64,000 bases of DNA. Origin: Arenicola marina. Taxonomy: Eukaryota; Annelida; Polychaeta; Arenicolidae. The notes beneath the pieces were generated by a model, which made no database searches, was not told the DNA's origin, and saw nothing but the letters and a program-made list of their open reading frames with translations. Positions 2,665 to 54,270 of this stretch are shown here, one piece after another. Where the stretch lies: contig OZ025261.1 in assembly GCA_964019135.1 (NCBI GenBank), positions 28,876,029-28,940,028 of the forward strand. Reading direction: 5' to 3'. Position numbers and translations under genes: made by a program. Position 1 is the first letter of the stretch, and each line of letters begins with the position of its first letter.

Positions 2665-4444
2665 CTAGTTGTTCTGGTGCTCGCCGTCCACGCAGGGTTG
2701 CGGCACCCCGATGTTGGTATTCGTACAAACCCCGTCGTCGCCAATGGGGTCGCCGTTATAGTCGCCACACTGCCCTTCCTATAGACCCTTGTAGTTATCA
2801 GAGACGCTGACGATGGCCTTGTCGTTGGTCGCAGCGTCTTCTACGTAGGTGACTTCGATCCAACACGAACCATCAACTCTTCCGGCCGTGATCAGATAGT
2901 TGCCGGCTGCCAACTCTTCAGCACATAAGTACCAAGTCAGGGAATCTGTCTCAATGCATTGCTTGGCCGGGGGGAAGGTCAGTGCTCCCGGTCCCTGTAA
3001 ATGAAAGGTTTCGTTAATACGTGTTCGATGAACGAAGAATTCGACGATGTGTGCGTACGTCAACATTGATGACAATCTTTAAGAAGATTTTCTACTAAGG
3101 CATTTAAGGCTGGAATCGACGTTCTTTGCTAATGATAATTGTGATGGAGAAAAAAAAACACAACTATCAGCTGCTTTTTTCCTACTTCAGGCTAAACCAC
3201 ACCAGAAATAAATTTGACATATTGCGGTGTTCTCATTAGTTGACATAGTGGAGGGTCCGGCGATCATAAAATATTATTGTAATACTTAATGATACGCCAA
3301 TTCTCATAGCAGTGAAACCAATTATGTTCGGTTGGAGTCTTTCATCATAGCCGGGCCCGCGCGCTTCGATCACTCCATCCTTCAGAGAAACCCTAAAGTT
3401 CCTGTCGAATTCATCTCATGGACACCAAATGCCACTCTCATCCAGTCCACCTGGGTTTGACCTCCGTCATCAGCAGTGTCGATCCGGACTTGAAACTACG
3501 CGCGTAACAGGTACGATTAGTATATATTGAATTGGACGGATAATGCGCGACCCATCAGGTTCATAATCTACAAAGATGCCCGTGAACGAGCTTGTGGAGA
3601 AAGTTCGATGTCAATAAAGACTTAGATGCGCTTTTTCCGTTTGGGAAATTCGGGTGTTGGGACCCGTTGATCTATATTTGGGCCACCATCTTACGCAAAA
3701 TAACGCCGAACTGCTGCCTCCAACGTTACTGGCCAATAAATGTCAAAAATTTAATTGGGCGCGACTATAGGTGGTTTCTCAATATTTCGTCGTACGTTAA
3801 TGTGCATGATTCATTTATTATTATCTGACCTTGCAAAGGTGAGCCGAGGTCGGTTGGAAGGTCCAGCCGACGAAATTGTTATCAGAGGCCATGGTGCTCA
3901 CAAAGCCGTCAAAGCTGACCACCTCGTTCGGGGCACCGAAGCCAGCGGTGCACTCGAAGTCGCAATCTGCGTTAATAAGTTCGATCTGTTCATGACGTTC
4001 AAGGCATTCCTTACACATGCCGGCTATTGGATGACGACATGTGTTCACTAGACCTTCCCAAATAGCAACTATGTGTCAAAATAGCACGGTAGGCTATGTA
4101 GGAAATGTGATATACGCCGGATATCACACTGCTGGTCGAACGCTGGCTGGGAAGCACATTGAACATTTTCATTAGTAACAAGGCATATCAGCTGGATCGG
4201 CTTAAATTGATATAGAGCGCCATGTTGGTATATGACACGTAACGTATAATATTACTAATATTGACCCTTTTATTGTTCATAAATACCTCGTACACATGCA
4301 CCCACCTCTTAACACCTTGCTCATATAGTCAGTACACGAGCACCAACGTCTTATCTGGTTCACATACCGATAGCACATGCCCCGATTCCTTACCTGGTTC
4401 ACAGATGCATGAATACTCATAATCACCCCCTTCAGTTTGGTGCA
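2665..4444 (-). pseudogene. vWD-like secreted protein gene, copy A (pseudogene)
   Basis: Leftmost member of the vWD-like array, alignable exon by exon with copies B, D and E. Recognisable exons are exon 5 (2665-2994), exon 4 (3344-3495), exon 3 (3830-3966) and a worn exon 2 (about 4391-4444). Exon 3 is open and keeps the CDFEC and VVSFDGF motifs and its donor. Several lesions argue against function. Exon 5 carries a TAG (2779-2781) just before the CGDYNGDP motif. Exon 4 lacks 10 nt relative to D, which shifts frame, and its donor reads GA instead of GT. The exon 2 acceptor CAG is gone. The promoter and signal-peptide exon are absent: the roughly 1 kb present in D between exon 2 and the upstream block is missing here. 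An AATAAA signal survives downstream. I see a decayed paralogue; the deletion of the 5' end probably came with or before the point lesions. Confidence 0.8.
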
Positions 4445-4449
4445 AGTCT

Positions 4450-5700
4450 CGCACAAGAAATACAAAGATTTTGATAGCATGCTTCAGGCCCATCAATAGG
4501 TAAATGCCAACTGAGGCATGGATATACAGACACTCGAAAAGTGAATTATTCGGGCTCACACGTCATGTTAATTCATTCAATCACAGATGAGGATAATCAT
4601 GATCAGCAGTCGATCGGGGGACAATCAGAATTTGTTATTTCGGCGTCGAATGCCGTAGACATCATACTGTTCAATGGCGATTTCCGGTGAAGGATTCACC
4701 CGTGCGTATCACGTACAACAATGTAGGCGCATTTCTTTAATAGCCCGGTATATCCCTGTGGTAAGAATACGCGCATTACGCATCGGTAAACCGCCCGACA
4801 CTTCTTTAACCCTGGTCTGGGTGCGCGCACATCCATTCGGTATGCCGATGTGCCCCGTTCAAAACAGCACGGGACATTCGGGAGAAGATGGCGGCCGATC
4901 GAAAGGTGATGAGAATAGGTTGGTACCACTGCACCACTACGTAGACCGGAAGTTTCCTGTCACGGGTTGCGGGTCCCGGGCGAGATATCACAGCTGGCCC
5001 ATATAAATGCGCCCTGTGCCGGCCTCGAGTGGCCTTTAAATCAATAAAAAAACATCATCCAGTTTAAAATGCCTAAACTATTCAGCATGGCTACCCCAAC
5101 GTTGTTTCCTTAAATTCACTTATTCTGTCGATGAAGCGATAACCTTCGATAACGCGACAATCGAGTTTTGTCCCCGGCTCAAAAAGGCCGTTTGCTTCCT
5201 CACAATTGTCGAAAAAATGGTCTGGACGGGGTAACTAACGGCACGTGACATGGCCGTTTTTTAAAAATCGATCTCAGACTGACATTAGCATTCATATTTC
5301 GAATGGAAAAATAGAAAATTTCGACACCTAGCCAGTTATCAGTGATTAACAACACACAGGGGGTGACAACGTTATTACAAAAAAAACACAGTGACATGGT
5401 TACATGTACATTATTACATAGCTGTTATGAGACGTTTTTATTGATATTTGTTATGGGTATATATACATAATGAATAACTTTAATGTCATTTTATTTCATT
5501 ATTGAACATTAAGTCCAGTAAATAGATACATAAATACATGAAGGTATTCGTCATCAAACCATGTTAATACAGATTCATCTGAACTAACTGTACGAATAAC
5601 GACAATTCAATTGTGGTATTTTTCATTTTCTTTGATTCGAAAAATGCGAACCTATGCTGAGGGCGTTCCGGTGCATTGTATGATACCCATTTATAATAAT
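4450..5700. other. Upstream flank of copy A; no gene
   Basis: Around 4,670-4,705 the sequence matches the region upstream of copy D at 31,655-31,690 (ATGGCGATTTC(C/T)GGTGAAGG). This marks where the homologous upstream block resumes after the deletion that removed the promoter and exon 1 of copy A. The rest to 5,700 shows no recognisable coding or RNA gene. The 110-codon frame at 4,674-5,006 is not conserved in the D copy and I do not accept it. Confidence 0.45.
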
Positions 5701-14156: not shown

Positions 14157-14250
14157 CGTGATGCTGAGTGAAGTCTGTGATACGCTGCAGTGAAGATGAT
14201 ACTTCCAAGTCTCCTTGGAATGTGGTTGAGATGAGGATCCGGGACCGAAT

Positions 14251-14257
14251 TTATATC
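14251..14257 (-). promoter_or_regulatory. TATA box of copy B
   Basis: The minus strand reads GATATAAATTCGG about 95 nt upstream of the ATG. The same element and surroundings (CATCTCAACCACATTCCAAGGAGACTTGGAAGT downstream of it) are preserved in D and E, with a plausible transcription start about 30 nt downstream near 14,224. The start position is inferred, not shown. Confidence 0.65.
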
Positions 14258-18986: not shown

Positions 18987-19758
18987 TTATAATGCCCTGA
19001 TGATAATGGGGTCGTCGTTATAGTCGCCACACTGCTCTTCCAATAGACCCTTGTAATTATCAGAGATCCGGACGCTGGCCTTGTCGTTGGTCACAGCGTC
19101 TTCAAGGTAGGTGACTTCGATCCAACACGAACCATCAACTCTTCCGGCCGTGATCAGATAGTTGCCGGCAGCTAACATTTCAACACATAAGTACCAAGCT
19201 TCTCCGGGGGTGAGGGCAGTGATGGCGGTCCCTGTAAAGGCAAGGTTTCTTTAATACGTGTTCGATGAACGAAGAAACCGACGATGTGTGCATTGCTGAA
19301 CATTGATGACAATCATGGGTCGAAGATTTTCGACCGAGGCATTTTATGGCTCGAAACAACATTGGTTGTTGCTGATAATTGTGACGGAGAAAATTAAAAT
19401 GACACAAGTGTCTACTTCACGCAAAAACCACGGTTGAAATCAATTTGACATAAAGCGGTACGTGCTATCAATAATGGAATGGTGTTGATACAAATTCGCT
19501 AGTGAAGGGTCAACGATCACGCCTATATTACGGTAATAATAAATGATACGCTAGTTCTCATAGCAACGACACCAATTATGCTTGATTGGAGCCCACGCCA
19601 TCGATCACTCCATCCTTCAGAGAAACCCTGAAGTTTTCCTCAAACATTGCCGAATTCTTCTCATAACTTGTTATCAGAGTCCATGGTGCTCACTAAGCCG
19701 TCGAAGCTGATCACCTCGTTGGGGGCGCCGAATCACGCGGTGCCCTCGAAGTCGCAAG
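18987..19758 (-). pseudogene. vWD-like gene, remnant C
   Basis: Two islands of the family survive. At 18,987-19,228 an exon 5 piece reads YLITAGRVDGSCWIEVTYLE and then EEQCGDYNDDP, but ends early because the normal C-terminal tail is replaced. A deletion near its acceptor removes the first conserved Cys region and shifts frame. At about 19,598-19,758 a piece of exon 4 is joined directly to exon 3, with the intron and most of exon 4 deleted. The exon 3 part has an in-frame TGA and lacks the second Cys of CDFEC. Exons 1 and 2 are absent. The 23.3 kb duplication begins just beyond exon 3 at 19,784, so this remnant is not repeated at 43 kb. Clearly non-functional. Confidence 0.8.
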
Positions 19759-20139
19759 CTATGTTAATAAATAAAATATTGTAGATTTACTCAAAAATTG
19801 GGTTAGCGAACAAGTTATAACGACATATATCAACTGAAGAGGGCAGTATGCATTTGTAGAATATAGATGCTATGCGTCAATCATTGCGCCAGCCGTCATT
19901 GAGAAATAAAAAAGTAATATCTCAGCCCTGGACTTGTTCAGTGACCTAATTCAAATGTTATGTTCATGATGTTCAAGGCACGCCTTAAAAAATAAATTTG
20001 TTAGATCACACGTAATTGCTGACTTATAATATTGCCAATATTGACCCTTTTATTTTACATGAATAACCAGTACAAGCGCACCCAACTCTTAACACCTTGC
20101 TCACATACCCAGTGCATGTGCACGATTGGCGATTCAGAT

Positions 20140-21240
20140 AGTTTTTATTAGCAACGTCTTAACAGATAGCAGAATAAATCGATTAACTTCAATATTCACA
20201 CATTCAATCGATCGACACAAAAGGGAATGCGTTCATCAACGACATTATGACTAGTGATTGCTGTTGATAATCTATGAAACGGATATAGTTTGACGCCTTA
20301 AAGCGAGGGACTAGGAGTACGACGAGGGGCTTTATCTGCCATAAACAGTTTTCAATTCATCTGCACTTAATAGTTTCAGTCCATCGTTCGGGTCTCGCAA
20401 ACAATGTAAACATTGCATCTTGCATTTCGTGATGAGTGGACATAAATGGCATGTCTTCCTCTCGTCATATATGTGTAGAAATATAAACCACCAGCTCACT
20501 AAGTCACCGCAAATTTATTAATTTGGGAGTAAGTGCCATACTCTACTGTCGTATGCTTAATTATGTGTCTTTAAATGCCAACAGTAAAAACTTTTTGGTA
20601 AGCCTTTAATTTTTACTATTTTACTTTACGGAATATCCTGGTCATCCACTTTGCCACGAGACACTGACTGCGCTCTGATTGACCGTTTCGTCGGTTTATC
20701 TCTAGTTTGATAGATGCAAAGCGGAAACTTGCTGAACTAGCAAGGTTCTTTAACGCTTCAGCGTAATAACTTTCATATACATGTATATATACCTTACCTT
20801 GTGAACGAATGAATGCAGAATTACTGCCGAAATTTGCTCATTATTGTTCATTGATTGCGAGTGTAAATGTTATGCTTTTGGCTTGTCAATGAACAATAAC
20901 AGCTATTTATTTTGCTGTACACGTCGATGAGTTTGGGCGTTGATATGATATTGTACCTAGCTTCCGTTAATAGACTTTCAACAGTCTATACCAGGACTTT
21001 CCTTCACTAACATTGTTTGAAAATTTTTATTAATATCTGGACAAGTGGGTAACCGTCGGTACAAGGCTACGCGGTTTAATTGATAGTACTCATATGCAGC
21101 AGAGTATGCACGAACTGTTGCTCGTGGCCAAGTAAATCTGACCTCAATTCCCCTCTCAGCGCAGCGGAGAGCACACATGTTGGGGGCGACATGGGCGGTG
21201 ATTTATTTTGGAAACCATGTCTCGAGTAATTTTCATAACG
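20140..21240. repeat. Conserved flank block R2, unit C
   Basis: Homologous to 5,700-6,760 and to the right-copy segment 43,440-44,570. The left copy lacks about 33 bp near 21,100 that the right copy has (CTTCAATGGTGTTGATTATA region). The minus-strand frame 20,978-21,178 is altered by this and is not evidence of a gene. Confidence 0.6.
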
Positions 21241-21359
21241 AACGCTTTATAAAAAGGTCTAAACTTGAAGTCTATAGCTTGGGTTTTTCCATTACATTAT
21301 TACCAATCAATGTTCTTCAAACGTCAGAGAAGAAATTTATCGTGACTGAGTATTAAGAC

Positions 21360-23500: not shown

Positions 23501-23559
23501 GACACTAATATCGCGAGATTTGCTTGGGTGCGTTAGAGATTTTATTGTTTCTTTATTAA

Positions 23560-30964: not shown

Positions 30965-31057
30965 CGTGATGCTGAGTGAAGTCGGTGATACGCTGCAGTG
31001 AAGTTGATACTTCCAAGTCTCCTTGGAATGTGGTTGAGATGAAAACCTGGGACTGAA

Positions 31058-36470: not shown

Positions 36471-36478
36471 AAGACAAT

Positions 36479-36716
36479 AGGGCTGTACAGTTCTCGCGGC
36501 TTCTATTTCCGGTTTAGGTCTTTTGGGGACCAACAAAAAAACACGTGCTCTTAGAACGAGTGCGCATCACGCTGGTGCCTTGCTGCAACTGCGTGACTCC
36601 CACTCATTGTAGTCAACGTTTTAGTTTGGGAACCGGCCCGCTGCGCGGTTTGTGCCTAAAGAATCGAGTGGGTGTGAAACTACTTTTTGTTTGCTTTGGT
36701 TCGGGCGTGGCTAACT
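36479..36716. repeat. Dispersed repeat R5, copy in unit D
   Basis: GCTGTACAGTTCTCGCGG, AGAACGAGTGCGCATC, CAACTGCGTGA and CGGTTTGTGCCTAAAGAATCGAGTGGGTGTGAAA are matched with about 80% identity by eye at 42,130-42,352. Length is about 230 bp. It may be a short interspersed element, but I see no convincing box A/B. Confidence 0.6.
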
Positions 36717-36739
36717 ATAAAATCATAATATAATTAAAG

Positions 36740-38290
36740 ATAAGACATTTATCTCTCCATAATGTGGGAGATCCGTTCGATGAGACTGTTGGAAGCGTTT
36801 TATTTTGAGGCAAATCATCCATGTGTATATTTCTGCGACAAACGAAGCCCCAACTCCCCGCCTGGTCAGTCGATATATGGAGCGTTGTTGCGTAACCATA
36901 GGTACCGCGTGCAAACATGCGAGTCAAGATGATCCTTACGTCATACAAAATGGAAAACCCCGGGCAACACATTAGATCGTCTGTCACTGACAGTCACTGA
37001 TGAGACACCCGCATTCTGGTTTATCAACTGAATTAGGGGTCGCCGAGGAAAATATTGAGCTATCGATCTTTACGGAAGTTGTCTATCTAACAAATTCCAA
37101 CACGTTATCAGAACTGCGATTCAGACACCTTACAATTACCCACCCCCTCATTTGCACAAACAGTTGATGAAATTATCAATTGTTGTGACTTTGCATCTAT
37201 GATCATACTAGTATACAATATATATCCATAAATCTACATTAAGTAATATGTATATGTAAAATGACGGGAATATATCTCAATATATATGGTAATACCAGGA
37301 GCCTTGTGGTTAGTGCGGTATTAATTTAGTAACTTTCTGCCACAATGTTAAACAGTCTAGTTACATGTTTCTGATGTTTTTACAGCATGTCGCTGGATTA
37401 TGATGTAACAGAATAGGCTCCAAAATGGGTGGTCATGTAGACCAATTTAGCGCTACTGGTCTTCAAGTGAGGTGATCCCTCTTCGCCAAAAAAAGAGCTT
37501 AGAAAATCTCGTGGAAAATTGTTGGTTTATCTTGGTACTCTGGGTTACTCTTCAAGAAGATTGTTCTCGGAATCTTGCCTGCTGAACAAGTATTTGCCAG
37601 ATGTTGATAAGCTAACACACATAAAATTCATTGCGAGTCTTCGGTTCATGCAGACGTTTCCATGACACGGGGAAACAACGCCGAGAGGCATTGCAGCGCT
37701 AGTTCTAGCTTGGTTCCGCAGCACTAACTTCGCTAACTCAGCAATACTTATATATTAAAACCTCACTCCCGACAACACCCCTAACCCGATCGCCTCCCTA
37801 ACTCGTTCGATTTTTTGCAGTCCCAACTGACGTCCTATGTCTTAGCATTTTTTTTTACATACACTTTATTTATTTTACGAGGTTCACAACAGAGAATTCA
37901 CATAGTAATGTTCACCTCGGATAGAACAAACAGAAGTGTAAATTGATCAACAGCAATGCAAATACAGAAACAAATCAGTCATGTGACATAATTGAACAGT
38001 AGGGCAAGAATCAGTATGACATCTTAGGAAAAGATTATCACGAGAAACGTTTGGTACTGACTATGCAGCGAATAATAGATTGAAACACTGATGTGTTATC
38101 TTCAATGGTAAATGCAGATGAACCGTGGAGGAGCAGGTCGCATAGGATGTCACAATGCCTTAGCATTGCAACCGTATTCTATAACCCGACCACATCCCTA
38201 CTCTGTAAGTCGAACGATCATTATGGCCAGAAGGCCCCATTTCATATTCATAAGTCGGCCGGCTGTCGGCTGGCAGAAGGATTAGTGTCA
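36740..38290. other. No gene seen
   Basis: Intergenic sequence with a counterpart at 60,049-61,599. Open frames are short, overlap on both strands and show no motif. A T run at 37,848-37,855 precedes a stretch of TTTATTTATTTTACGAGG. Nothing else stands out. Confidence 0.45.
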
Positions 38291-38299
38291 CTGGCTAAT

Positions 38300-38493
38300 T
38301 GCAATTAGTAGAACACACACACGCAGGCGATAACGTCTGTAGACTGGATAGCATTCTTGCAAATGTGTAAAACATGTTTGCATGTTGTTAGCGCATACAT
38401 TGTAGTGTTGATGACACAACTCGATACACGTACAATCGGGGGATACCACATGTGAATGGCGTGCGCTTTGATGATTTTGATCAAACAACTCCC
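38300..38493 (-). mobile_element. Truncated pogo/Tigger-like remnant (left copy)
   Basis: The reverse complement matches 8,190-8,335 (CAAACATGTTT..ACACATTT, CTA(C/G)AG(A/G)CGTTATCGCCTG). Homology stops at 38,493-38,496, where the right copy (61,610-62,165) continues into the rest of the element. So this copy has lost its other part to a deletion. Confidence 0.6.
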
Positions 38494-38527
38494 TCTCTAG
38501 CATCTGAAAGGGAATAATAAAAAAATA

Positions 38528-39872
38528 CATTTTGTAAATGGAAATGTTTGTAAACGTAAACAAAAATAATAATTCGTTTGACCTTAGGAACCACTTGGAA
38601 CTTGTTATCATCTGGTAATTGTTGAGTATTAATTGGCAACGATATATTTTGGACTGGTTTTATTCGCATCAGCCGTCTACTGTGCGATAATAGAGAATTA
38701 TCAGCAATAGTGGTGGTGATAATAGATGCACGATATCAATGACTGATAAATTAACGCAAGAAGCAGGTCTTACCTTTTCATTTTCCTTGGAAGGATGACA
38801 TTTCTGGACATTTCTTGTAAAACAAACTTGAAGTTGCTGCCTGTTGACGGCGACACTGTGCAACACCAAGCGCTCACCGTTTGGCGGCGCCACCGGCGAA
38901 CTATTGCAAGGAAATCGCCGTGTGACCTATCTTGGTGTACTAATACATTTGCTGCTTAGTTGCCTGTGCGTGCCGCATTTTGTAAATGGAAATGCTTGTA
39001 AACGTAAACAAAAATAATAATTCGTTTGGCCTTAGGAATCACTTGGAACTTGTTATCATCTGGTAATTGTTGAGTATTAATTGGCAACGATATATTTTTG
39101 ACTGGTTTTATTCGCATCAGCCGCCCGATTCTACTGTGCGATAATAGAGAATTATCAACAATTGTGGTGGTGATAATAGATGCACGATAACAATGACTGA
39201 TAAATTAACGCAAGAAGCAGGTCTTACCTTTTCATTTTCCTTGGAAGGATGACATTTCTGGACATTTCTTGCAAAACAAACTTGAAGTTGATGCCTGTTG
39301 ACGGCGGCACTGTGCAACACCAAGCGCTCACCGCTTGGCGGCGCCACCGGCGAACTATTGCAAGGAAATCGCCGTGTGACCTTTCTTGGTGTACTAATAC
39401 ATTTGCTGCTTTGTTGCCTGTGCGTGCCGCATTTTATAAATGCAAATTCTTGTAAACGTAAACACAAATAATAATTCGTTTGGCCTTAGGAATCACTTGG
39501 TACTTGTTATCATCTGGTACATGTTGAGTATTAAATGGCAACGATATATTTTTGACTGGTTTTATTCGCATCAGCCGCCCGCTTCTACCGTGCGATAATA
39601 GAGAATTATCAGCAATTGTGGTGGTGATAATAGATGCACGATATCAATGACTGATAAATTAACGCAAGAAGCAGGTCTTACCTTTTCATTTTCCTTGGAA
39701 GGATGACATTTCTGGACATTTCTTGCAAAACAAACTTGAAGTTGATACCTGTTGACGGCGGCGCTGTGCAACACCAAGCGCTCACCGCTTGGCGGAGCCA
39801 CCGGCGAACTATTGCAAGGAAATCGCCGTGTGACCTATTTGGTGTACTAATACATTTGCTGCTTAGTTGCCA
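38528..39872 (-). repeat. Three tandem ~450-bp modules with exon-like segments (left copy)
   Basis: Module starts are at 38,528, 38,976 and 39,430 (periods 448 and 454). On the minus strand each module has an open segment ending AAAATGAAAAG-GTAAGA. The first module has a candidate exon at 38,774-38,900 behind a TTTCCTTGCAATAG acceptor-like site. A gap of about 94 nt follows, ending CGCACAG, and then a second open segment containing MRIKPV(Q/K)NISLPINTQQLP. The donor is kept in all five complete modules of both copies. The acceptor is kept in four and lost in the third left-copy module. Joining the two segments keeps a frame (..VLQEMSRNVILPRKMK then SR(R/IG)RLMRIKPV..). I recognise no protein family. 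It may be repeated exons of an unknown gene or simply a satellite with an ancestral exon. Confidence 0.55.
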
Positions 39873-42095
39873 GTCAGTGGAAAAAAAACTTTGATCGTTT
39901 AATGCGGAATAACCCAAACAAGCAGAGTCATGTTATTGCCTTAAATTTAGATTGAATACCTCATAATCATAATAGCGCGAGTTAGAATATTTTATTGGCT
40001 CTTCATTATGCTGTAGCAACACTTCATTTCATTAAGACCCATCGACCCGACTAACTCGTGCTATTGTTATATTGCAATAATGTGACATCATTGCATAACA
40101 GGGGCTGGGGTCCACAATATTTTGATGATCGGGGGGGCGGGGGAGAGTCCACGCCTCAAATGGCCTTGGGTGGGATGTCATTGAAAATAATGCGGGCTAT
40201 TTGCACATCTGAAATGTTGACGCCGGCGCTGGCGCTGGCGTAGGCGTTGACAATGCCGTCATACTATGGTTAAGTTATGGTTAGCTTTTAAAGCTGACGA
40301 TAAACATTAATTTAGCGTTACGCTAAGGAGCACAGTGGCGTTATTGTAACGTAAACATAGAGCGTTAAGACAACGTATCTGCTCTGGTTCATTATACGCT
40401 ATGTTAACTTTGACATGCTTTCTGGATAGCTACCTAGGCCAACAAAGTTTTCGTGGCAAATATGAATCAAGAGCATCCATTCTGACTTGCAGAATGACTT
40501 GAATTTATTTTTGCCAGACAGCGCCATGTCAAGCGATTTCCTGTGGATTCTTGGACATCACTATTATTACCTATAGGTTTGACCTAGCGAAATAGATCAT
40601 GTTCATTTCAACTCGATAATCCCCGTCGGTCATAAAATAGAATATGGATTTCTCTCACTGCATGTCCATACGGTAGGATGTCCGAAGTCATGACTCAAAG
40701 GCATCATGTTTCTTGGAAGTGTCTTGTCCAAATTGAGCCTTCATGTGCACACATGCGGCCAAAAGAGAATCATTTCATTCACGCTGTACGAATAGCTGCT
40801 GTCATTCAGATCGAAAGTATAAAGTAAGTTCACTTGCATTATGACACGCGGATGTTGTGCCAAGGTCGATTGCATTATGACACTTCGGGCTTCGTGTTAC
40901 AGATTTGCGTTATGGATTGCCGCTTTTCTGGCATAGTCATTTTCATTGCATTAGGCCGGTCGGTTCCTTTCAAACAATGGAGGTGAAGTAATGCCGTGGG
41001 CGACGATACATCTATTTATACATCTTCCCTGAAAGAAAATGGAAAAGAGGGAGTTTCGCTTAAACAATTATATTATTTTTGACAATACTGGTCACTTTCA
41101 CATCAGGCAGAAGAACAGATCATGCTCTTTGTCTACTGAGGGTACTTTATTAGGTTATGTGCGTATCGGGTTGTTTTAAATGACAATTCAAGGCCCGTCT
41201 CATGTATATTTCCAGTTAAACTATAGATAATTAGCTAAACATTACACAAAAAAGAATTGTATTTAATCATACATTGGTGAAGTTCCAAGCACTTTAGCAC
41301 GACTACTCACCCTGCCATGGGCACTTTATTCAAGAATGTAACCTAGTCAATTTGGTTGGTCTACTTGATGTGATTACTATAAAACATTACGATATGAATT
41401 CATAAGCATTGAATGACGTACGTTTTATGTTAATTGCGTACCTGTGATTTGGGATTACCTGTTGAATAATCTTAGACATTAATGTATGTGTATGTCATAG
41501 TGTGACCATGTAAGTCACGGGTACATTATGTTTGTGGGCGTGACCAGGTAAGTCACGAACACATTATGATTACCGGGCCCTGGCGAATGTTTTAAACATT
41601 ACCGTGTTAGCAACCTCTGTTGTGTTTATTGACAATAGAAACAGAGGTTGACCTGTCCAGACGTGTTTCGATTTATCGGATCTTTCAAAGATATTGATAT
41701 TAACATAATGGTTTCTATTTTCTTGTATTTAATCTAAATATAGAGAGCAGAGCCTGTATTAAATATTAGTATTAATTATCGGAAGATCGGAGAGTTTTAT
41801 ACAATTGTTTAAGGAGTATATTAAAGTAAAAGTTAAACATGTTGGTTACTATGTCAATGGAGTTAGTCTAAGGGACTATATTATTACAGGCCGATACCTA
41901 CAAACATGGCTACATCGTAACTGATGAAGGATGGCATAGCGTTGTTAGCGGTAGGTTGTAAGGATACTTGAACTCTTATTTAAAGATAAGGTTTAAATGT
42001 TCCAGGAGTAACTAAACCCATGCGGAAGTATTGTCACTATTCATATCAATGGATAATGGCAAATACATTTTATGCAAACAAAGTTGTACTTTTAT
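39873..42095. other. Unique spacer between duplicate copies; no gene
   Basis: No exon or known repeat recognised. Small features are a GGCGCTGGCGCTGGCGTAGGCG hexamer-like run (about 40,224-40,247) and two direct 29-nt repeats GTGACCA(T/G)GTAAGTCACG(G/A)(G/A)(T/C)ACATTATG (41,502-41,530 and 41,540-41,568). There is also an 11-bp inverted repeat at 41,611-41,650. Confidence 0.5.
41611..41650. repeat. Perfect 11-bp inverted repeat (hairpin)
   Basis: CAACCTCTGTT (41,611-41,621) and AACAGAGGTTG (41,640-41,650) are perfect reverse complements around an 18-nt loop. There is no U tract or partner gene that would give it an obvious role. Confidence 0.8.
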
Positions 42096-42129
42096 ATCAC
42101 ATTGCAGCTGCCCAGAAATTCAAGACCAG

Positions 42130-42352
42130 CGACGAATAGAGCTGTACAGTTCTCGCGGGTTCTAGGCCCACTTTAGGTCCTGTAAAAAAAAAACTCTTAG
42201 AATGAGTGCGCATTTGGCTGGTGCCGTGATACATGCAACTGCGTGAGGCACACTCATTGTGGTCAAAGTTTGAGTGTTGGGAATCGGCTGGCTGCGTGGT
42301 TTGTGCGTGAGGAATCAAGTGAGTGTGAAATTATATTTAGTTTGCTTTAAGG
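42130..42352. repeat. Dispersed repeat R5, copy in spacer
   Basis: Diverged copy of 36,479-36,716 in the same orientation. It keeps GCTGTACAGTTCTCGCGG, AGAATGAGTGCGCAT, AACTGCGTGAGGC and GTGAGTGTGAAA. Its divergence is far greater than that between the 23 kb copies, so it is an independent older insertion. Confidence 0.6.
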
Positions 42353-43090
42353 CATTTTCCGTTGGGCGCGGAGGCCTCGTTGTATGCGTTGTTTTACATA
42401 TTTTATATATCAGTCCGTCCCTTTTTGTATCCCCCCACCCACCCCTGCTCATTGGGCTAAGGTCAGGATTGCTCATCGAATCGTCATCGACGTTGCAAAA
42501 ATTATCGGCCCGACGCAGGCCCTTAATTGGCGTGCCTCTATTTGATACGAATTAATACACTCTAGCTTGTGACATCGTGACAACTGAACCTACAGGCGAT
42601 CGATCAATGAAATATTTAATACAGCAACAGCAAATTAGATGTAGGCCAGATGGACTTTATTGACCCATGGCAGTGTAAGCGATAATAGGGATCGGGTCAG
42701 AATGTGCAGGATTACCAACGAATTGTCACTAGGATATGCATGCAACGTGTCAAATGACATAGCGCTTGCACGAAATGTAGATCTAGTAAACTCCAGTAGC
42801 CCTGTGTAGTACGTGTCACTTACTGGAGTACACATGAGAGCTTCAACTTCAGCACTTGCGTAGCCAGCAGAAAATGCATAATGCGTAGGCCCGCACCCGG
42901 CCTCGCCAGCTTTGTCAAAATTAAATAAAATGTATAAGTGCCACCTAAATGGCGAGCGAAGTCTAGAGATCCAAGATTAAAACTTTACATGAATAAGTAT
43001 TTAATTGTGTTTTCAATGTACCTGAAAAATGTATTTGGATTCTCATCAAATATATAGTATGACATGATTAAGTCTTTTGTGGGGCCCCTT
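42353..43090. other. No gene seen; ends at duplication junction
   Basis: Intergenic sequence without recognised motifs, ending GTGGGGCCCCTT at the junction. The GGGGCCCC palindrome (43,081-43,088) abuts the breakpoint. Confidence 0.45.
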
Positions 43091-43439
43091 GATTTACTCA
43101 AAAATTGGGTTAGCGAACAAGTTATAACGATATATATCAACTGAAGGGGGCAATATGCATTTGTAGAATATAGATGCTATGCGTCAATCATTGCGCCAAC
43201 AGTCATTGAGAAATAAGAAAGTAATATCTCAGCCCTGGACTTGTTCAGTGACCTAATTCAAATCTTATGTTCATGATGTTCAAGGCACGCCTTAAAAAAT
43301 AAATTTGTTATATCACACGTAATTGCTGACTTATAATATTGCCAATATTGACCCTTTTATTTTACATGAATAACCAGTACAAGCGCACCCAACTCTTAAC
43401 ACCTTGCTCACATACCCAGTGCATGTGCACGATTGGCGA

Positions 43440-44570
43440 TTCAGGTTTTTATTAGCAACGTCTTAGCAGATAGCAGAATAAATTGATTAACTTCAATATT
43501 CACACATTCAATCGATCGACACAAAAGGGAATGCGTTCATCAACGACATTATGACCAGTGATTGCTGTTGATAATCTATGAAACGGATATAGTTTGACGC
43601 CTTAAAGCGAGGGACTAGGAGTACGACGAGGGGCTTTATCTGCCATCAACAGTTTTCAATTCATCTGCACTCAATAGTTTCAGTCCATCGTTAGGGCTCT
43701 TTCGGGTCTCGCAAACAATGTAAACATTGCATCTTGCATTTCGTGATGAGTGGACATAAATGGCATGTCTTCCTCTCGTCATATATGTGTAGAAATATAG
43801 ACCACCAGCTCACTAAGTCACCGCAAATTCATTAATTTGGGAGTAAGTGCCATACTCTACTGTCGTATGCTTAATTATGTGTCTTTAAATGCCAACAGTA
43901 AAAACTTTTTGGTAAGCCTTTAATTTTTACTATTTTACTTTACGGAATATCCTTGGCATCCACTTTGCCACGAGACACTCACTGCGCTCTGATTGACCGT
44001 TTTGTCGGTTTATCTCTAGTTTGATAGATGCAAAGCGGAAACTTGCTGAACTAGCAAGGCTTTTTAATGCTTCAGCGTAATAACTTTCATATACATGTAT
44101 ATCTAGACCCTTACCTTGTGAATGAATGCAGAATTACTGCCGAAATTTGCTAATTAATGTTCATTGATTGCGAGTGTAAATTTTATGCTTTTGGCTTGTC
44201 AATGAACAATAACAGCTATTTATTTTGCTGTACACGTCGATGAGTTTGAGCGTTGATATTATATTGTACCTAGCTTCCGTTAATAGACTTTCAACAGTCT
44301 ATACCAGGACTTTCCTTCACTAACATTGTTTGAAAAAATATATTAATATCTGGACAAGTGGGTAACCGTCGGTACAAGGCTACGCGGTTTAATTGATAGT
44401 GCTCATATGCAGCTTCAATGGTGTTGATTATATACCAGCTGGCGTCAGAGTATGCAACTGTTGCTCGTGGCCAAGTAAATCTGACCTCAATTCCTCTCTC
44501 AGCGCAGCGGAGAGCACACATGTTGGGGGCGACATGGGCGGTGATTTATTTTGGAAACCATGTCTCGAGT
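43440..44570. repeat. Conserved flank block R2, right copy of unit C
   Basis: Matches 20,140-21,240 with visible substitutions and a 30-bp net length difference. It is the more complete of the two C-unit copies. Confidence 0.6.
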
Positions 44571-46850
44571 AACTTTCATAAAGAACGCTTTATAAAAAGG
44601 CCTAAACTTGAAGTCCATAGCTTGGGTTTTTCCATTACATTATTACCAATCAATGTTCTTCAAACGTCAGAGAAGAAATTTATCGTGACTGAGTATTAAG
44701 ACCTAGCCTATTTTCGCGATATTGCGATTCGAAATCGCAAAAAGCGGAAAGCGGGCATGATCGGCAAACTGTGGCTAACATGCGGATGGGGATAAATGTG
44801 ATAAATAAGTTGGAAAAGAAGATGTGATTTTATGACTGATTCTGAAGGTCTAGTCGGTGGTAAAAGCGTGTCGAGAGGCACATTAATCTGGCTTTGCCCT
44901 GCAAATATGTTTACGTCCACGACAATATAGGAATGTCCACAATAATAGGTCTAACGTTATAATGTCGTAAAATGGATAATAAAAACGCTTCAGGCACACT
45001 TGTTGTTGGCATAGGTTCCTACCTAGACACTCGAAGGAAGTGACTGGGCGCAGTGAGGCGAGCGGGTGGGGGCACCCCCATTTGACACCCCAAAGATGAC
45101 GTTCATACGTACATACAAACATATAAGCTATGTCCGTTGCCCGAAGTTTAATCCGGTCTCGAGCATCTAATTACGATGTCCAAGAGAAATAATTTACACG
45201 GTAGGCCAGTGTCAATATATCGATATCTTTACTTACCTCCGACAACACAAATAAATTAGCCTGACAGCGGCTTTTTCATCGGCATAAAAAATACATGGCA
45301 AAAGCAGTACAAACCAATTTGTAATGCGACTAAGCGGCAATACAGGTGTTCGTGCATGGTATTAAATTGCCATTATAGTGAGGGATAGGCGGCTAAGCCA
45401 CGATAATTGACCGATAATGTGTCCTTGGTTCTGACACCCTTGATTGTGCAGTACATCTAAGTCGAGGTCTTGGCAACTAGTAACTGCACCGATCGATCAC
45501 GACCCCATTAATTGCACATTGCCACTGCTGGCATCTGCATGGCTTAATTGTACATCACACTGACCTTCATGTAAAAAAAAAAAACTTGAGTACACCAACA
45601 TAATATATATATGTGCGCCATACGTTGCAGTTTAGTATTAAACAAGACCACGTCTAGTTTCTTACCATGCATTTCTTTCAAATAATTTGATAACCATATT
45701 AAAATGTGAGTAGATGCTTTATCTAAAATATCCGGAAGCTATTCAGAAAATGGGCGCAGAACGTACACATATAAGTTGTATCTATTGTAAGATGTTGGTG
45801 CCCGTCGCAACTAAGTATACTTGAAATACAGATTGAAGGTAAAAATTCATGAAGTTGGGGAATTGTTATAATTTCTATTGATGAAAGTAGCGTTTTATTT
45901 GTCACAATTCATAATAAAGACTTCCGATTCTCCCTCTAAGTGGACATAATCCCAGGTGCCGACATCTTCCTATGAAATTGAAAGGAATAAGCTCTCTTGC
46001 TTGCAGCTTGTTCCCGTTGTTTCTCAACACTCATGAGCATGGCCGTTATTTGTGCATTGCCTACTGGGTTACTAAGCCCCGGCACCGCGGTGCTCCAACA
46101 GTCAATTAAATGTATTCATATCGTCTTGTTGGCGACAAATAAGTTATGTGTACTTTCGCAGCCCCAGCTGAGCTAAACATTCCTCTATATACAGGTCATA
46201 TGGTTGATTGTACGATATTAATTGCTCCGGCTAAGCCAAACCTATTTCTTACCATGACCGCGTTAGATGATCCTAAATTACGATGCGTATATTGGTGGGA
46301 AGCATAAGTGGCGTGTAGGTTCTCAGCCCCAGTTGACCAAACACTTCTCACTACAAGATATCTGGTTGACAATATGGTAAGCGATTGGGTCGGCTGAGCA
46401 AACTTACCAGGCTGCCCGGGCGGCCAGCAAAAATGAAGTAATGAAACTATATCTCGTATTATTGCGAACTGATGCTTGTGTTAACTAGTACAATAGCATT
46501 AACTCTGAAGGCGGCTAAAATCGTGTAATCTGACCCACGCCGCCCCGTGACCGTTTCAATAGTCAATCGTTGCCATAGTGACATTGCACGGTGCAAACAA
46601 ATTGCCCAGTTGCTTAGTTGCACGCGCCACGTTTCTTGACCACGATATATGGTGTCAAAAAGGCGACTGGCCAACTACATGTGGAAAGGCTTGCGATTTG
46701 CGGACAGTCAGTCGCAAAATTATTAATTATAGTCGATTACTACTGACGTGTAATCATAGAAGATGCATGTTCAGGCCTTAACTTTAGACTCAACTCATAA
46801 TGACACTAATATCGCGAGATTTGCTTGGGTGCGTTAGAGATTTTATTGTT
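44571..46850. other. Right copy of unit C intergenic DNA; no gene
   Basis: Counterpart of about 21,230-23,550. It lacks 42 bp that the left copy has near 22,672-22,713 (TATCAATAAAACCAATAAAA and onward). Nothing coding recognised. Confidence 0.5.
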
Positions 46851-46859
46851 TCTTTATTA

Positions 46860-47900
46860 AGCTGTAGCAACCCTTCATTTGCATTAACCTCTCTCGGACG
46901 AATAATGGGATAGTGCAGCTTTCTAGTTCACAACTTAATTTATTGCGCTTTGCTACAAAATCGACACCCTCCGCTGCGTTTAGATCTTTTCTGATATCTA
47001 GCTTTCCTACGTCTTTTTCTATGAATTAAATCTGCTTGTCTAGTTTATTTTTCTATTAAGCAAATCTGCTTGTCTAGTGTCATATTCGTAAACGAACTAT
47101 AATTGATAGCTTTACCGCAATTGACCAGTTGGTCGTTAACGACATCCCCACCTTGTGTCGCCCTATATCGTTTCTCTACTTTTGTCTTTAAGCAGCCTAT
47201 CCTACAATTCAGCGTAAAACATGGACGAATTTAATTTCCAAAACTCATTCCCTCTTTCTTTTATTAAGACGTCTACATTCATCGTAGTAAGACAGTAGTC
47301 CGTTCTATATATAGGCCGTATTGAGACACTTTGCGTTCCGGCATGCAGATTCAGAAGAATAGAGGTAAAACTTCAGCTTCTCTCGCTGCGCTCTACACTG
47401 TTGATTTACGCAGGGAAACGTTTAGTATAACCCTCTAGGTATCTATAATTTAAGATTCAAGGTTCGTTTATTTGACCAAGTATGACGAAAATACAAATAC
47501 AGTGAGACAAATAGTGTCGGCTTGGCCGGGAGGCTTGAACTAAGCCCTTAAAGGTCGCTGGCGCTAGAGCCACCCATCATTGTGATTTTTAAAGTGATTT
47601 TAAAGTTCTAGCGACTCATATTCATATCAACAAATCATATTCGGTACCAACGCTAGATGAAGGTGCACATATTGAAGAAAATAGACAAGACAAGATAGCT
47701 TTTGCCCTATGTATAGCCGTTCGCCCATATCTCTTTGTTTTGACGTTGAAGCGATGCTGCGTGCATTCATTCATCCAAATTGCATACCACTACTAACAGA
47801 GACCATTAATCAATGCCGATACAACAGCAGCTCTGCACAATACACGTATTCTCTATACCGTACCTGAAATCTGCACAATTCTCAAGCATAGTTGTTGCCC
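46860..47900. repeat. Dispersed block R1, unit E
   Basis: Practically identical to 23,560-24,600 and diverged from the 1,240-2,310 copy. Same relation to the downstream LINE ORF1 fragment and vWD gene. Confidence 0.55.
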
Positions 47901-48610
47901 GTGTTCGGCCGAGATTACATCGCCGAGCTGAAACTGACCACACAAAACATTCAGAGATCGTCTCATGAGTAAAGCTATCAAAAGACACTTTTCGGGGAGA
48001 GTGCATCATCTTTCCCTCTTGTAGGTTTTGCCATAGATGATCAGTCTGGTTTCCACCTCGGCCCCCCCACCCCCCCCCCCTGTCATCCTTCTGGCTGCCT
48101 TCATGATTGTCACCAGATACCGTCGTTCCTCTGGCGGACCGCTTGGGTAGATCTTCACTAATGAAGTTTAAGTGGCCCGCAAAGGTTGCTTCACTTTCCA
48201 GACCTCTTGTCTTTCTAGCAAAAAACGCAAACCTGGCGATAATGGGCCTTGGCTTCTTGCATGGTTGCGGCTTCGCTCCAGGTCGGTGTCTGTCACCTCC
48301 ATTACCCGGGTTATCCATTTTCAGTTTATTCGTCAACATATCCAGGGTATCTTTGTTGCATTTTTCTTCTTCCCGAAACTCCGGCACACCATGAATAAAA
48401 TTGCCACGCCTGCCATAAGATTCCAAGGCCACAACGCTGGCTTATATTTGTACTGTGGCAGCTTTCTGTCTTTCCAGCTGCATTCCAGTTTCTTGCTTCT
48501 CAAGGCCTCTAACCTCTTAAGTTAACTATCCGTTTTCCTTTTCCAAAGCTTCAATATACTTATTTTGATACCCCGAGGCTTCCTTCAAGTTAATCATTTC
48601 GATCTACGAC
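47806..48610 (-). pseudogene. LINE ORF1-like fragment (right copy)
   Basis: Same ORF1 RNA-binding signature as the left copy (RRGNFIHGVPEF, RPIIARFAFF, FISEDLPK). Here the shorter poly-C/poly-G tract (about 48,062-48,080) keeps a 208-codon frame open (47,806-48,432). The reading-frame difference between copies therefore hangs on a homopolymer length and could be a sequencing error in either. Residues after the poly-Gly stretch are not clearly ORF1. Confidence 0.75.
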
Positions 48611-49109
48611 AAGTTTATTGCTTGTGGCATTTCTGGAAGAGTGCGTAAAATTAACCCGTACATGTCATCACGATGGGGCCGCTCCATTGTTAGTTTGAGA
48701 AAATATGCGTTAGAATTTGTGCTTCGTATGCACTCATACAAATTATGTATAATTATGAAACTACTTTTGTTATGATTGTCAACTTCGTGCTGCCACGGCA
48801 GTGCGAACAAACGACTTACCTGAGTAAAAGAAACAGCGATAGGCAATACCCTGTCAAAACCAATCGTGTCACCGAACCGATACCTCTCTTCTCTTAATAA
48901 CTGTATACTTACGTTTAAAGAAAAGAACCATTCCTGATATTTAAACATGAGAATGCACTACACCAGCTCAATCTTCTATCTTAAATATGAAATAACATCA
49001 AACCATGGCTTACGGTTCCAATTTGATCCAATGTTATGCTTGTTACGGCAGCGGCTACTGCGGCGTACATAACACACTCTAACCTTCCTCAATCAACAAC
49101 AGCTACCGC

Positions 49110-49970
49110 GCTCTAGGGGATAGAAAAAGGCTACCTCACAGTAAAGTATAGATGGACTACCGGGCACTAGATGGTAGACACCATGCTCCCAAGGGGTTAC
49201 CCCGCATACAATGCCGGTACCATGCATCCCAAGGATGTACAGGGCCTACCGCATAATAACAGATGGATGATACTCCTAATGGGCTAATACGCACTAAAAA
49301 GCATGGGCCGGCACAATGCATCCCCAGGGGCTAAAACATTACCGCACAGTAAGCAATATGAACAGGGCTACCTCACATTAAACAATAGCGACGGGGCTAC
49401 CTCACTTTAAAGAATAACGAAGGAGCTACCCCGCAGTGAACAATAAGCCTACCTATAGTAAGGAATACGACAAGAAGTACTTCGTAATAAAGAATAGCGA
49501 AGGGGCTACATCACTTTAATGAATAACGAAGGGGCTACCCCACAGTGAACAATAAGGCTACCTACAGTAAGGAATATGACAAGGGTTAATTCGTATTAAC
49601 GAATAGTGATGGGTCTACCGTACAGTAAACAATGCATCCACGTGCAGCAGAATACGGAAAAGGCTACCTCACAGTAACGTATATGGAAAGGTGCCCCTCA
49701 CAGCAAACAATAGAGCCAGGGCTATCTCACGGTAAAAGCTAGCTCATGGGCTAGCCATATTAAACAATATGGCAGGGCTAGCCCTTAGTACAAAATAAGC
49801 ACACAGAACCATGACTTACGGATCACCCACAGTAAAGAATAGAGCAGGGGCTACCTCACCGTAAAGAGTACCGAAGGGCTACGTCACACTAAACAATATG
49901 AGCAGGGCTGCGACTCAGTACTAAGTAGGCACCCAGAAACATGACCCAGGAATCACACCCGCTATAGCCG
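49110..49970. repeat. GGGGCTACCTCACA minisatellite, locus 2 (right copy)
   Basis: Same unit number and order as 25,810-26,670, with only one or two substitutions seen. A minisatellite this stable in two copies points to a very recent common origin. Confidence 0.8.
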
Positions 49971-50330
49971 CGGCTATATACTGTGGCAAGCACATCTTCC
50001 ATCCCCGTTAATGCTAGCTTGAGCCCCAAGGGTCCACTAAGCACTCTTCGACCAATGGGCGAGAACCAAGACAAACAGAGTTAGTTTTCATGAATACTAA
50101 AGCGCTAGCCCTGGTACATGCCTCTCTGACCACGCCCGTAAACGGAGCTAGTGTGAGAGCCATGCCGCTGACACGGCCGAAAACAAGAAATCGGCAGAAA
50201 TCGCGGACCGGTGGCTCAAGTTGAAGTTCATCACAGAAAAAATATACAGTGCCTACCCGCCTATGTGCGCCACGAGGTTCCTAAAGCTTTTTGGACTTTC
50301 GTCGCACTTTCATTTCTTTGCTTGGTAACG

Positions 50331-50481
50331 TATTTTCTTGTAATCCGGGCGATTTTTTTCACCTCTCGCTTGGTCAACAAACGCCGCCTGGCAGCGAGTG
50401 CTCACGCTAAGTTTGTTTACTTCCGGCGAGCGGCGGAAGATTCAAAATTAAGCGAGAGGTGAAAAAAATTACAAGAAAATA
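50331..50481. mobile_element. Foldback/MITE-like element (right copy)
   Basis: Counterpart of 27,031-27,181 with the same arms, and with the same 9-nt insertion in the left arm. Confidence 0.65.
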
Positions 50482-50929
50482 CGGCCGCGGCGATGAAGCA
50501 GCTCTACGACGACGTTTTAACCTCGGCTGGCTGCCCATGAAAAAAAAACACTTTTCATTCCGTCTTAGAGTGCCACCTGTGCGGAAGGCAATGGCTTTAT
50601 TCTTTCTTACATTTAGTGTTACATCATATTTTTTACACAAAACGCCTAATACTATTAAAGCCTGAGCTCCCGTATCTGGAAATTAAAACGATGATAGTAT
50701 GGGTCCACTCAAAACGCGGGAACCGCTCTTGATCATTTCATAAAGCAAGCCATCAGATTTACTTTTCGGCAGCGCATTAAGGTTTTCTGTTACCTCTTTT
50801 TGCATGAATCGTATAATGCACAATCATTATTCGGAGAGCTTGCGGTGAGGGGTGATAAGAACGACAAATGCATCTTGGCGTGTAAAGATTTTAATAGCTA
50901 GACGTATAATAACATAAGTGATGTTAAAT

Positions 50930-50933
<4 letters not shown>

Positions 50934-50993
<60 letters not shown>
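50934..50993. repeat. (TA)n microsatellite, unit E
   Basis: A pure TA tract of about 60 nt, 6 nt longer than the one in the left copy. Confidence 0.95.
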
Positions 50994-50995
<2 letters not shown>

Positions 50996-51412
50996 GTGAG
51001 TGGAAGGGAAAATGAAAGAATCCGCAATGTTCGGTCTTGAAGGAGTGAGCACTGGCGTCTGGATCGAATGCCTGCCAGCGACCGAGCTGGTGAGTTTCGG
51101 CCAGTCGGAGGGTCCGCTCGGGTCTGGTCCGCAGGGATTGCCTATTGAACCTCAAAGGGCATGCGAAGTGCACGCGGTGATCAGGAGGGAGTCAGGGGTT
51201 AGGGGTCAGACGAGCGTGATCGGCGAGTACTTAGGGTTTGGCTGAAAAAGGGAAGAGAAGCACCGCATGCCTTCATAATGCCCATGAATTACTACAGGAG
51301 GAGCAATTAGTACATAATTTACTTGTACTAATGTACCATTGCAATTCCAGCAATTGAAAAACGCATATGCGAGTGAACGAGAACCAAATTCGAAGTAAGA
51401 TTGCTTCAACCA

Positions 51413-51418
51413 TTTATT
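51413..51418 (-). promoter_or_regulatory. Polyadenylation signal AATAAA of copy E
   Basis: Same context as in copy D, about 140 nt downstream of the stop codon. Confidence 0.6.
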
Positions 51419-51555
51419 GCAACCGTCAGCGCTACATTATAGCCATGTTGCCAGTCACGTGACTGAGACTCTCCATGAGGACCAAATGTCCGGACGGTTG
51501 GTCAAAGTACTCGGTACATCGTGGCCAGGTCACCCGTTCTATTGTAGCAATGGAT

Positions 51556-54270
51556 CTAGTTGTTCTGGTGCCCGCCGTCCACGCAGGGTTGTGGCGCAGC
51601 TGGGTCAGTATGCGTACAGACCAGGTCGTCGCCACTGGGCTCGCCGTCATAGTCGCCACACTTTCCTTCCAGTTTGGTCTTGTAGTTATCAGAGACCCTG
51701 ACGATGGCCTTGTCGTTGGTCGCAGCGTCTTCCCAGTAGGTGACTTCGATCCAACAGGAACCATCAACCCTTCCGCCCGTGATCAGATAGTGACCGCTGG
51801 ACAACTCTTCGACACAGAAGTACCAATCAGGGCTTGACTCAATGCATTGCGGAGTGGTCAAGACCAGCGCGCCTGGGGGCTGTTGAGGAAACGTTTGTTT
51901 AATACCTGTTTTGATGAACGAAGAAACCGACGATGACCTCGTTGATGAAATTCATGATGAAAATGTTCAACTAAGGAATCAACGTTGGCGTTGCTGATGA
52001 AAATAATGATGGAGAAAGTAAACACGACGTAACTACAGTCGATGCATTCAAATCAGCCGCCTTTTTTTTCCTGCACACAAAACCTCTTTTGAAATACGTA
52101 TCTATTCCATGACATCACAACTACTCTAGTAGTAATATTATGGTAATAAATGTTACGACGGTTCAAAAAAACATATTAACAAAAATAATTATAGTGGTAA
52201 CCTCTTACACGGTAGCCCCGCCCGCGGGCTTCGACAACTCCTTGTTTAAGAGAAACCCTGAAGTTCCTCTCAAACTTCGCGGAATTCTTCTGATGGACAC
52301 CGAATGCCACTCCCATCCAGTCCACCTTGATTTGACCTCCGTCATCAGTAGTGTCGATCCGGACTTGAAACTACGGGGCAACCACACAACACGTATGATT
52401 AGTACATATCAGATCGGACTTGTTATGCTAATATATGGCAGGTTGCTAATCTACAAAGAAGCCCGTTAATTTGCTCATAGAGAAAGTTTGATCTGAATAG
52501 AAAAATCTACATATTTTTCTTCCTTTGGTGAATGCGGGCGTTGGGACATGCTGATCTATATTTAGCTCACCATCTTACGCACAATGTCACCTAACTACCA
52601 CATCCAACATTGTAAAAGAGATGCTTGGTCGCCATCAGTTGTGGCATTAAAAACATTATTGGCCTCTCAATATTTCAGCGTTGAAATTAAGTTAGTGCAT
52701 GATTTATTTAATATTATCTGACCTTGCAAACGTCAGCCGAGGTCGGTTCGAACGTGGAGATTAGGAACTTGTTATCGGAGTCCATGGTGCTCTTGAAGCC
52801 GTCAAAGCTGACCACCTCGTTGGGGGCATCGAAGCCAGCGGTGCACTCAAAGTCGCAAGCTGTGTTAATAAGGAAATGATTATACATTTACTCCAAAATT
52901 GGGTTAGCGAAGTTACCGTAATACATATTAACTGGAGGGGGCAATATCCATTTGTAGAATATTGATGCCATGCGTCAATCAGTGAGACAACCATCATTGA
53001 GAAATGAGTTGCGGAAAGTAATATCTCAGCCCTGAACATGTTCGGTGACCTAATGCAAATCAAAATACCATATACATATCTAGATGGTAGTCTATGTAAA
53101 AAATGTGATGGTGGGCATCCGTCCGTCTGCGCAAGACGATGGATTTCGCAGCTTTGTCTCATTTCAAGTGATACGATTTGGGCCGCGGCATTTGCGCTTA
53201 TGACTGAATAAGCCTATCTCTGACCGACATAGCTTGCCGCAGTCGTCGCATTGGTGACCTGTCAATAGGTCTTGGTTTGTACTTACTAGGTGCCTAAATT
53301 GGTGTTTCGAGCCTGCGGAACACTATATAACTGTATCACATTGTTCATATTTCTGCGTCTATGTTGAACATTTTCATTGTATCAAGGCATATGAGCTGAA
53401 TTGACTTAAATGTATATATAACGGGTTTTCTTCATGTTGTCGCTATGTTATTGTATGTCACGGCATTGCGGTCATAATATTATCAATATTGAGCTTGTAA
53501 TTTTACATAAATACCCAGTACACGGGCAACCACCTTTTAATACCTTGCTCACACCCAGCACATGTGCACCGATTCCTTACCTGGTTCGCATATCGATAGC
53601 ACGTGCGCCGGTTCCTTACCTGATTCACATACCGATGGCACATGCACTGATCTCTTACCTGGTTCACAGACGCACGAACACTCACAATCGCCTCCTTCGG
53701 TCTCGGTGCAAGTCTCGCCACCTGGGTGGGGTTGAACACAATTTTATCTTATAACATACAGCAACACTGAAGCGTTAGTATCTGTGCGGCCCCATGGTTA
53801 ATAATAATACCAAAAGAGCAAACTAATATTAGTAATCATTCGATATTATTATAATGTAGCGTTGATAGTTAATTTTATGCAGCAAATAAAGCGTTTGACT
53901 GACCTTACCTCTCCACTGAATTATTGTAATGTTTTAATAACCGTATAGGTGGATGTGCAGATCAAGACTTCGCATAAATTTAACTCGTCCGTTTCATGTA
54001 AATGGCCATTGCAACGCTATCGTTTTTGAGTTTGTAGCAGAACCAAAACGCAGCAAAGACATCAGATTTTATCTATGTCGATTCCCCTACCAGGCAGCCG
54101 AAGCGGTTCCCGGTGAAACAAAGCCAGGCCGACAACCATACCCTGACATTTCATATCAGTCTAAGGCGTCACGAAATGATAATTTGGGTGTAAGAAAGAA
54201 TTGCTACATTACCATGGATGCCAAGGCATGCCGTCAGGATTAAGGCCGCCGAGAGGAAGAGTCGCGTCAT
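51556..54270 (-). CDS. Secreted Cys-rich vWD-like protein, copy E (five exons)
   Basis: Joined exons: 54213-54270, 53659-53721, 52723-52859, 52209-52370 and 51556-51879, each the copy D exon shifted by 23,306. I found no coding difference from D, so it should encode the same 247-residue product: signal peptide 1-20, five-Cys segment 21-41, vWD-like region with CDFEC, VVSFDGF, GSCW and CGDYDGEP. Introns show rare substitutions only (for example near 51,950). The promoter and polyadenylation signal are duplicated too, so both genes could be expressed and double the dose. If the two 23 kb copies are really alleles placed in tandem by assembly, D and E are one locus. Confidence 0.87.
53579..53659 (-). 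repeat. Intron-2 donor minisatellite in copy E (3 donors)
   Basis: Same three GTAAG donors 39 nt apart as in copy D (GTs at 53657-53658, 53618-53619 and 53579-53580), with two in-frame 13-residue repeats between them. Confidence 0.8.

Follow-up and report, generated by a model that had tools for sequence, protein, structure and literature searches.

A tandem array of genes for a small secreted single-VWD protein in Arenicola marina, part of a large family in turnover with an intronless branch

The VWD domain is best known from mucus and clotting proteins. Most work on it concerns the very large mucins and VWF, in which the C8 and TIL modules next to it, together with the CGLC motif, have a part in polymerisation. 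A stretch of 64,000 nucleotides (nt) from the annelid Arenicola marina (C14:28876029-28940028, hereafter the window) was analysed here. Sequence comparison revealed five vWD-type gene copies (A-E) in the window, all on the minus strand; a preliminary description had reported five copies in one orientation, and the ends it gave, the stop codon of A at 2665 and the ATG of E at 54270, were exact. The five copies are part of a head-to-tail array of a large annelid gene family. That this is a family of secreted single-VWD proteins in active turnover was judged highly probable, and a dosage-driven structural protein of mucus, tube or adhesive was the favoured but tentative role. Taken together, with the weight on the part seen in the sequence, the two were given a probability of about 0.5.

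Copies B, D and E had been described as intact-looking genes, and the product as one of 247 residues. All three were intact, but D and E had identical coding sequences owing to a 23.3-kb tandem duplication, which left two independent sequences; the length of 247 residues was correct for D and E, whereas B encoded 248. Each gene consisted of five exons of 58, 63, 137, 162, and 324-327 nt, which joined in frame, and all four introns were GT..AG. The exons were located at 14156-14099, 13550-13488, 12702-12566, 12210-12049, and 11678-11352 in B; at 30964-30907, 30415-30353, 29553-29417, 29064-28903, and 28573-28250 in D; and at 54270-54213, 53721-53659, 52859-52723, 52370-52209, and 51879-51556 in E. 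A TATAAA read from the sequence stood on the same strand 99 nt 5' of the ATG in B (14250..14255) and in D (31058..31063). The putative exon joins were placed by the conserved splice sites, the frame, and intronless paralogs encoding the same protein unspliced. Another exon 4/5 join in D, with the acceptor 26 nt and the donor 2 nt upstream, also kept the frame and gave 255 residues, but was rejected because the 247-residue join sits at the place homologous to that in B. Chance was excluded as an explanation of the array because B and D shared five exons in the same order and with matching splice phases, at 77-100% nucleotide identity.

The translated B, D, and E products agreed with the layout described before, namely a signal-peptide-like start, a five-cysteine segment, and one VWD domain, with 14 mature cysteines. 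The intact copies appeared to have kept the signal peptide (assigned by eye), the cysteines, and the TATA box at -99, as had also been claimed. In a Pfam search, three of the five proteins scanned passed the cut-off of PF00094 (22.9 bits) with 27.6, 30.2, and 31.6 bits; all were intronless paralogs, of which four were scanned, and D fell just below. VWD was the only Pfam family in these five proteins. The predicted structure of one paralog showed the VWD beta-sandwich fold, and together with the Pfam scores this upheld the VWD assignment. The stop codon directly followed the VWD in B, D, E, the five-exon paralog L050, one paralog each on C6 and C20, and 11 intronless copies, and no C8, TIL, or E module was found after the VWD in any of them. 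The CGLC motif was not found either; EGxCG, TGxCG, or KGxCG was present instead, and the first cysteine was absent in all 11 aligned sequences. Likewise, no GDPH preceded the TFDG strand, where B and D had APNE and the aligned paralogs had GPNT, GRNT, GRDT, or GRDI. NCBIfam, a collection of bacterial and archaeal families, gave no family for two proteins. The six PDB matches of D by phmmer (best E 0.45) were taken as chance, and the single PDB match of the paralog L012, to vitellogenin (E 1.3), was not a homolog.

Selection on the product, suggested earlier, was examined by the ratio of nonsynonymous to synonymous divergence (dN/dS) according to NG86, with a codon bootstrap of 1000 resamplings. 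Between B and D, dS was 0.381 and dN 0.134, and the ratio of 0.352 (bootstrap 95% 0.232-0.535, maximum 0.69) agreed with the suggestion and was not near 1. It was below 1 for the coding sequence as a whole and for every exon that allowed a calculation (four of the five), and exon 5 had the highest dN of the five (0.225). Exon 1 was identical between B and D, silent sites included, which may result from conversion or extra constraint. The introns were 61-82% identical, and intron 1 (82%) was more similar than exon 5 (77%). The dN/dS values indicated that the coding sequence is under purifying selection.

The remaining two copies were broken. Copy A (2665..4452) retained remnants of exon 2 (~4452-4394), exon 3 (~3966-3830), exon 4 (~3495-3344), and exon 5 (2994-2665). 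It had been said to have lost the promoter, signal exon, splice sites, and frame. Neither a promoter nor exon 1 was found, and the frame was broken by a 1-nt deletion in exon 2 and a 10-nt deletion in exon 4, with a TAG in exon 5 besides; however, only two of the seven splice sites of exons 2-5 were lost (the exon-2 acceptor and the exon-4 donor, GT to GA), and five were kept. Copy C (19005..19758) was the gutted remnant it had been called, with part of exon 3 (19758-19665) and fragments of exon 4 (19664-19601) and exon 5 (19198-19005). In a 174-kb stretch surveyed for broken copies (C14:28786001-28960028), the order of A-type copy, B-type gene, and remnant recurred. Four B-type genes were present, of which B and Bc (C14:28862736-28859932) had identical coding sequences, while the other pairs differed by 1-6 nt; the 3.3 kb around the other three were 98.2-98.5% identical to B, and the upstream B-type genes recurred every 25-30 kb. 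None of the A-type copies in the 174 kb had a match to the promoter and exon 1 of B nearby, the only matches being the four B-type genes, D, and E. The lost exon-2 acceptor, both deletions, and the changed exon-4 donor were common to all three A-type copies, whereas the exon-5 TAG of A was absent in A2, and A1 ended before that point. Since the three A-type copies shared their main lesions beside near-identical B genes, the sequence indicates that A died first and was then copied inside an amplified block. Three further exon 4-5 remnants were found near 28.811, 28.842, and 28.868 Mb, and the array extended past the window, with 16 last-exon matches at C14:28.66-28.93 Mb. The array as read here turns over by multi-gene block duplication and decay, and the birth-and-death proposed in the preliminary description was supported by the coexistence of live and dead copies, with the A-type lesions shared beside intact B copies.

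The genome comprised 867 Mb in 762 contigs. One of these, C762 (15,942 bp), was mitochondrial; its protein genes stood on a single strand in the order cox1-cox2-...-nad6-cob-atp6-...-nad5-nad4L-nad4-...-trnV-...-nad1-nad3-nad2 and were open under code 5, cox1 being identified by a profile and all others but trnV by eye from the translations. Most annelids have this order, and an annelid source is accordingly most likely. To place the array, two protein searches of the whole genome were used, which gave at least 152 and 155 matches (150 of 736 and 150 of 718 candidates scored). Listed matches covering the last exon were kept; those of the second search already present in the first were left out, as was one partial match of the first search adjacent to another match (C14:10480577-10480804), and the three exon 4-5 remnants above were outside the count. 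The family comprised at least 176 last-exon matches, which are exon matches and not proven genes, on 13 chromosomes in 27 clusters (400-kb rule). Of the 176, 143 had no stop in the match used, and five lay in the window. Among the matches listed, last-exon identity of the subfamilies to the query was no higher than about 35-70%. The C6 and C20 paralogs, fetched for exons 3-5, kept the exon 3-4-5 layout. Several arrays were made of identical or near-identical copies. In three clusters (C14:15.28-15.45, C14:22.89-23.42, and C18:18.01-18.09 Mb), unlike the window array, neighbours alternated in strand almost perfectly (+-+-+-), and these were perhaps inverted pairs amplified as units. Other clusters were rich in stops (12 of 14 last-exon matches at C9:26.68-27.32 Mb, 7 of 15 at C13:26.20-26.38 Mb, and 4 of 5 at C14:39.99-40.09 Mb), and some arrays may be mostly dead.

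One branch of the family, by its sequence, is without all four introns and has itself been duplicated. At least 13 intronless matches began at residue 3-5 and continued in a single frame to the end, 11 of them open and two with a stop; a further intronless copy on C8 (L047) was frameshifted. The exact absence of all four introns indicated reverse transcription of spliced mRNA, from which this branch would have arisen and which would have needed germline transcription. For three intronless pairs dN/dS was 0.25-0.38, and for L050 against the intronless copy L020 it was 0.19; the upper bootstrap limits of these comparisons were 0.28-0.59. An earlier alignment had given 0.22-0.35 for six intronless pairs. 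Because of these low ratios and a TATA-like sequence no more than about 100 nt from the ATG in the copies read, the intronless copies look alive. L050 (C14:22.89 Mb) had five exons and four introns at homologous places, and its nucleotide identity to seven intronless copies was 60-93% per exon. The identity was 88-93% in exon 5 and 60-83% in exons 1-4, which may point to gene conversion confined to the last exon. At C1:68734669-68747749, the intronless copies L018 and L019 formed an inverted pair encoding identical proteins; broken copies lay to either side of the pair in mirrored order, so that the whole block was palindrome-like. Two weak matches to the reverse-transcriptase family RVT_1 lay between the gene copies of the window (6750-7028 and 18071-18514, plus strand; E 0.045 and 0.0017, both below the cut-off); they were perhaps LINE remnants, and could conceivably have supplied the machinery that made the intronless copies.

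The closest parallel was provided by the spiggins, the nest glue of sticklebacks, whose tandem secreted VWD genes are said to allow copious production (PMC4989455). As described in the available text of that paper, the spiggins are derived from MUC19; spiggin B (1852-1869 residues) has four VWD and three C8 domains, C1 and C2 (616 and 639 residues) have two VWD, two C8, and one TIL, some spiggins have only a truncated GLCG motif, and the gene spiggin B/ChrIX has lost introns, which the authors linked to LINE-1 retrotransposition. The worm family likewise had a tandem array with turnover and an intron-free relative, but its protein had one VWD only, with no C8 or TIL found, and it belongs to an annelid with far more loci. 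It also differed from MUC5AC, MUC2, and VWF in that it is no multi-domain chain, lacks CGLC, and has none of the C8, TIL, and E modules behind its VWD. The C-terminal VWD of FCGBP and the VWDs of RGMB and MUC4 lie outside D assemblies and are likewise without C8, TIL, and E; as the available text has it, they are situated within larger proteins and carry a cleaved GDPH motif in RGMB and MUC4 (PMC10880436). In the worm, the VWD made up nearly the whole secreted protein and GDPH was absent.

Each intact gene would give a small secreted protein with a signal-like start, a cysteine-rich N-terminal segment, one VWD, and nothing after it. This would be a disulfide-locked VWD module secreted in quantity, with the copy number serving dosage. 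Because mucins and VWF polymerise by way of C8, TIL, and CGLC, all missing here, the protein would either stay monomeric or be linked to other chains by the cysteines of its N-terminus. The spiggin parallel, with tandem secreted VWD genes for copious glue and an intron-free member, favoured a structural role in mucus, tube, or adhesive. Several points weigh against this account. D and L020 scored 20.2 and 20.7 bits, below the Pfam cut-off, although E was <0.001 for both. In the structural model, pLDDT was <50 for residues 1-42 and for almost all of 231-250, so that no structural statement on the cysteine-rich N-terminus could be made. No obvious poly(A) tract was seen in the intronless copies read, and one tree, which lacked support values, nested L050 among the intronless copies; both observations bear on the number and direction of retroposition events. 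The functional step, finally, is one that we infer.

A different objection concerns the size of the array. Positions 19784-~38496 were repeated as 43091-61805 (overall 19784..61805), the first copy holding D and the second E, which lay 23,306 bases apart. The identity of the two coding sequences, and of 99.6% over 15.8 kb, would also be expected if two haplotypes had been assembled in tandem, making the array smaller than it appears. Such an artefact was considered unlikely, because the mismatch rate changed in steps along the copy, from 22-25 per kb over the initial 3 kb to 0-2 over the following 9 kb and 3-8 over the 6 kb after that, whereas two haplotypes would be expected to differ evenly, and because the upstream B-type genes likewise recurred at 25-30 kb. 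Duplication with later conversion, as read from this stepwise divergence, suits the pair better. A sixth remnant overlooked before, scrap F (43092..43434, minus strand), had no exons and matched intron 2 of D only; its duplication partner was 19784-20127, upstream of C. As to the purpose of the copies, a recognition or immune protein binding foreign or self glycans or proteins would need them for diversity instead of dosage. The number of matches, the low identity of the subfamilies to the query, and the high dN of exon 5 would suit it, but dN/dS between B and D was below 1 overall and in the four exons computed, and arrays of identical or near-identical copies fit dosage better; this role was thought improbable. 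A reproductive role in egg coat, jelly, or sperm-egg contact seemed less probable again: inheritable retroposition requires germline transcription, and the full-length intronless copies would follow from germline expression, but any low germline transcription suffices. An enzyme or small-molecule binder on the VWD fold was very unlikely. The predicted fold matched two proteins outside the mucins, the soluble green pigment protein of Tettigonia cantans (PDB 9kue) and Cypridina luciferase (PDB 24ne), which were not among the matches of the two PDB sequence searches, their inclusion in the searched set being unchecked; the worm chain has 247 residues, against 516 in the solved luciferase chain.

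Other features accompanied the duplication. Each copy contained one open frame (302 residues at 34534-35442 and 332 at 57840-58838, plus strand) with no Pfam match at E <=0.1, whose C-terminal part resembled a non-LTR retrotransposon protein by eye. Beyond the end of each copy stood a tandem repeat with a 454-bp period and 95% matches (38528-39871, 3.0 copies; 63060-63996, at least 2.1 copies, reaching the window end). An Rfam scan of the window gave nothing at the gathering score.

The VWD domain and the mode of evolution are of known kinds, whereas no description of a free-standing single-VWD layout of this extent, together with re-amplified retrogenes, was seen in the literature searches. 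No report naming such a family appeared among the literature results listed, in which subscription papers were mostly outside the scope; a term search found no von Willebrand or VWD in the main text of the Alvinella genome paper and of one annelid comparative-genomics paper, and in the available text of the Paraescarpia tube paper "von Willebrand factor" refers to VWA. We tentatively propose that in an annelid lineage an isolated VWD became a free-standing secreted family with hundreds of loci, one of the largest known expansions of the domain, and that its retrocopies acquired functional promoters, remained under purifying selection, and gave rise to new tandem arrays. A secreted VWD-only protein of 247 residues is a minimal natural test of the domain acting alone. 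The array shows birth-and-death clearly at one moment, with dead copies carried along in amplified blocks, and the intronless branch is a datable case of retroposition and subsequent re-expansion. Should the product be a component of mucus or tube, it would be a candidate biomaterial module.
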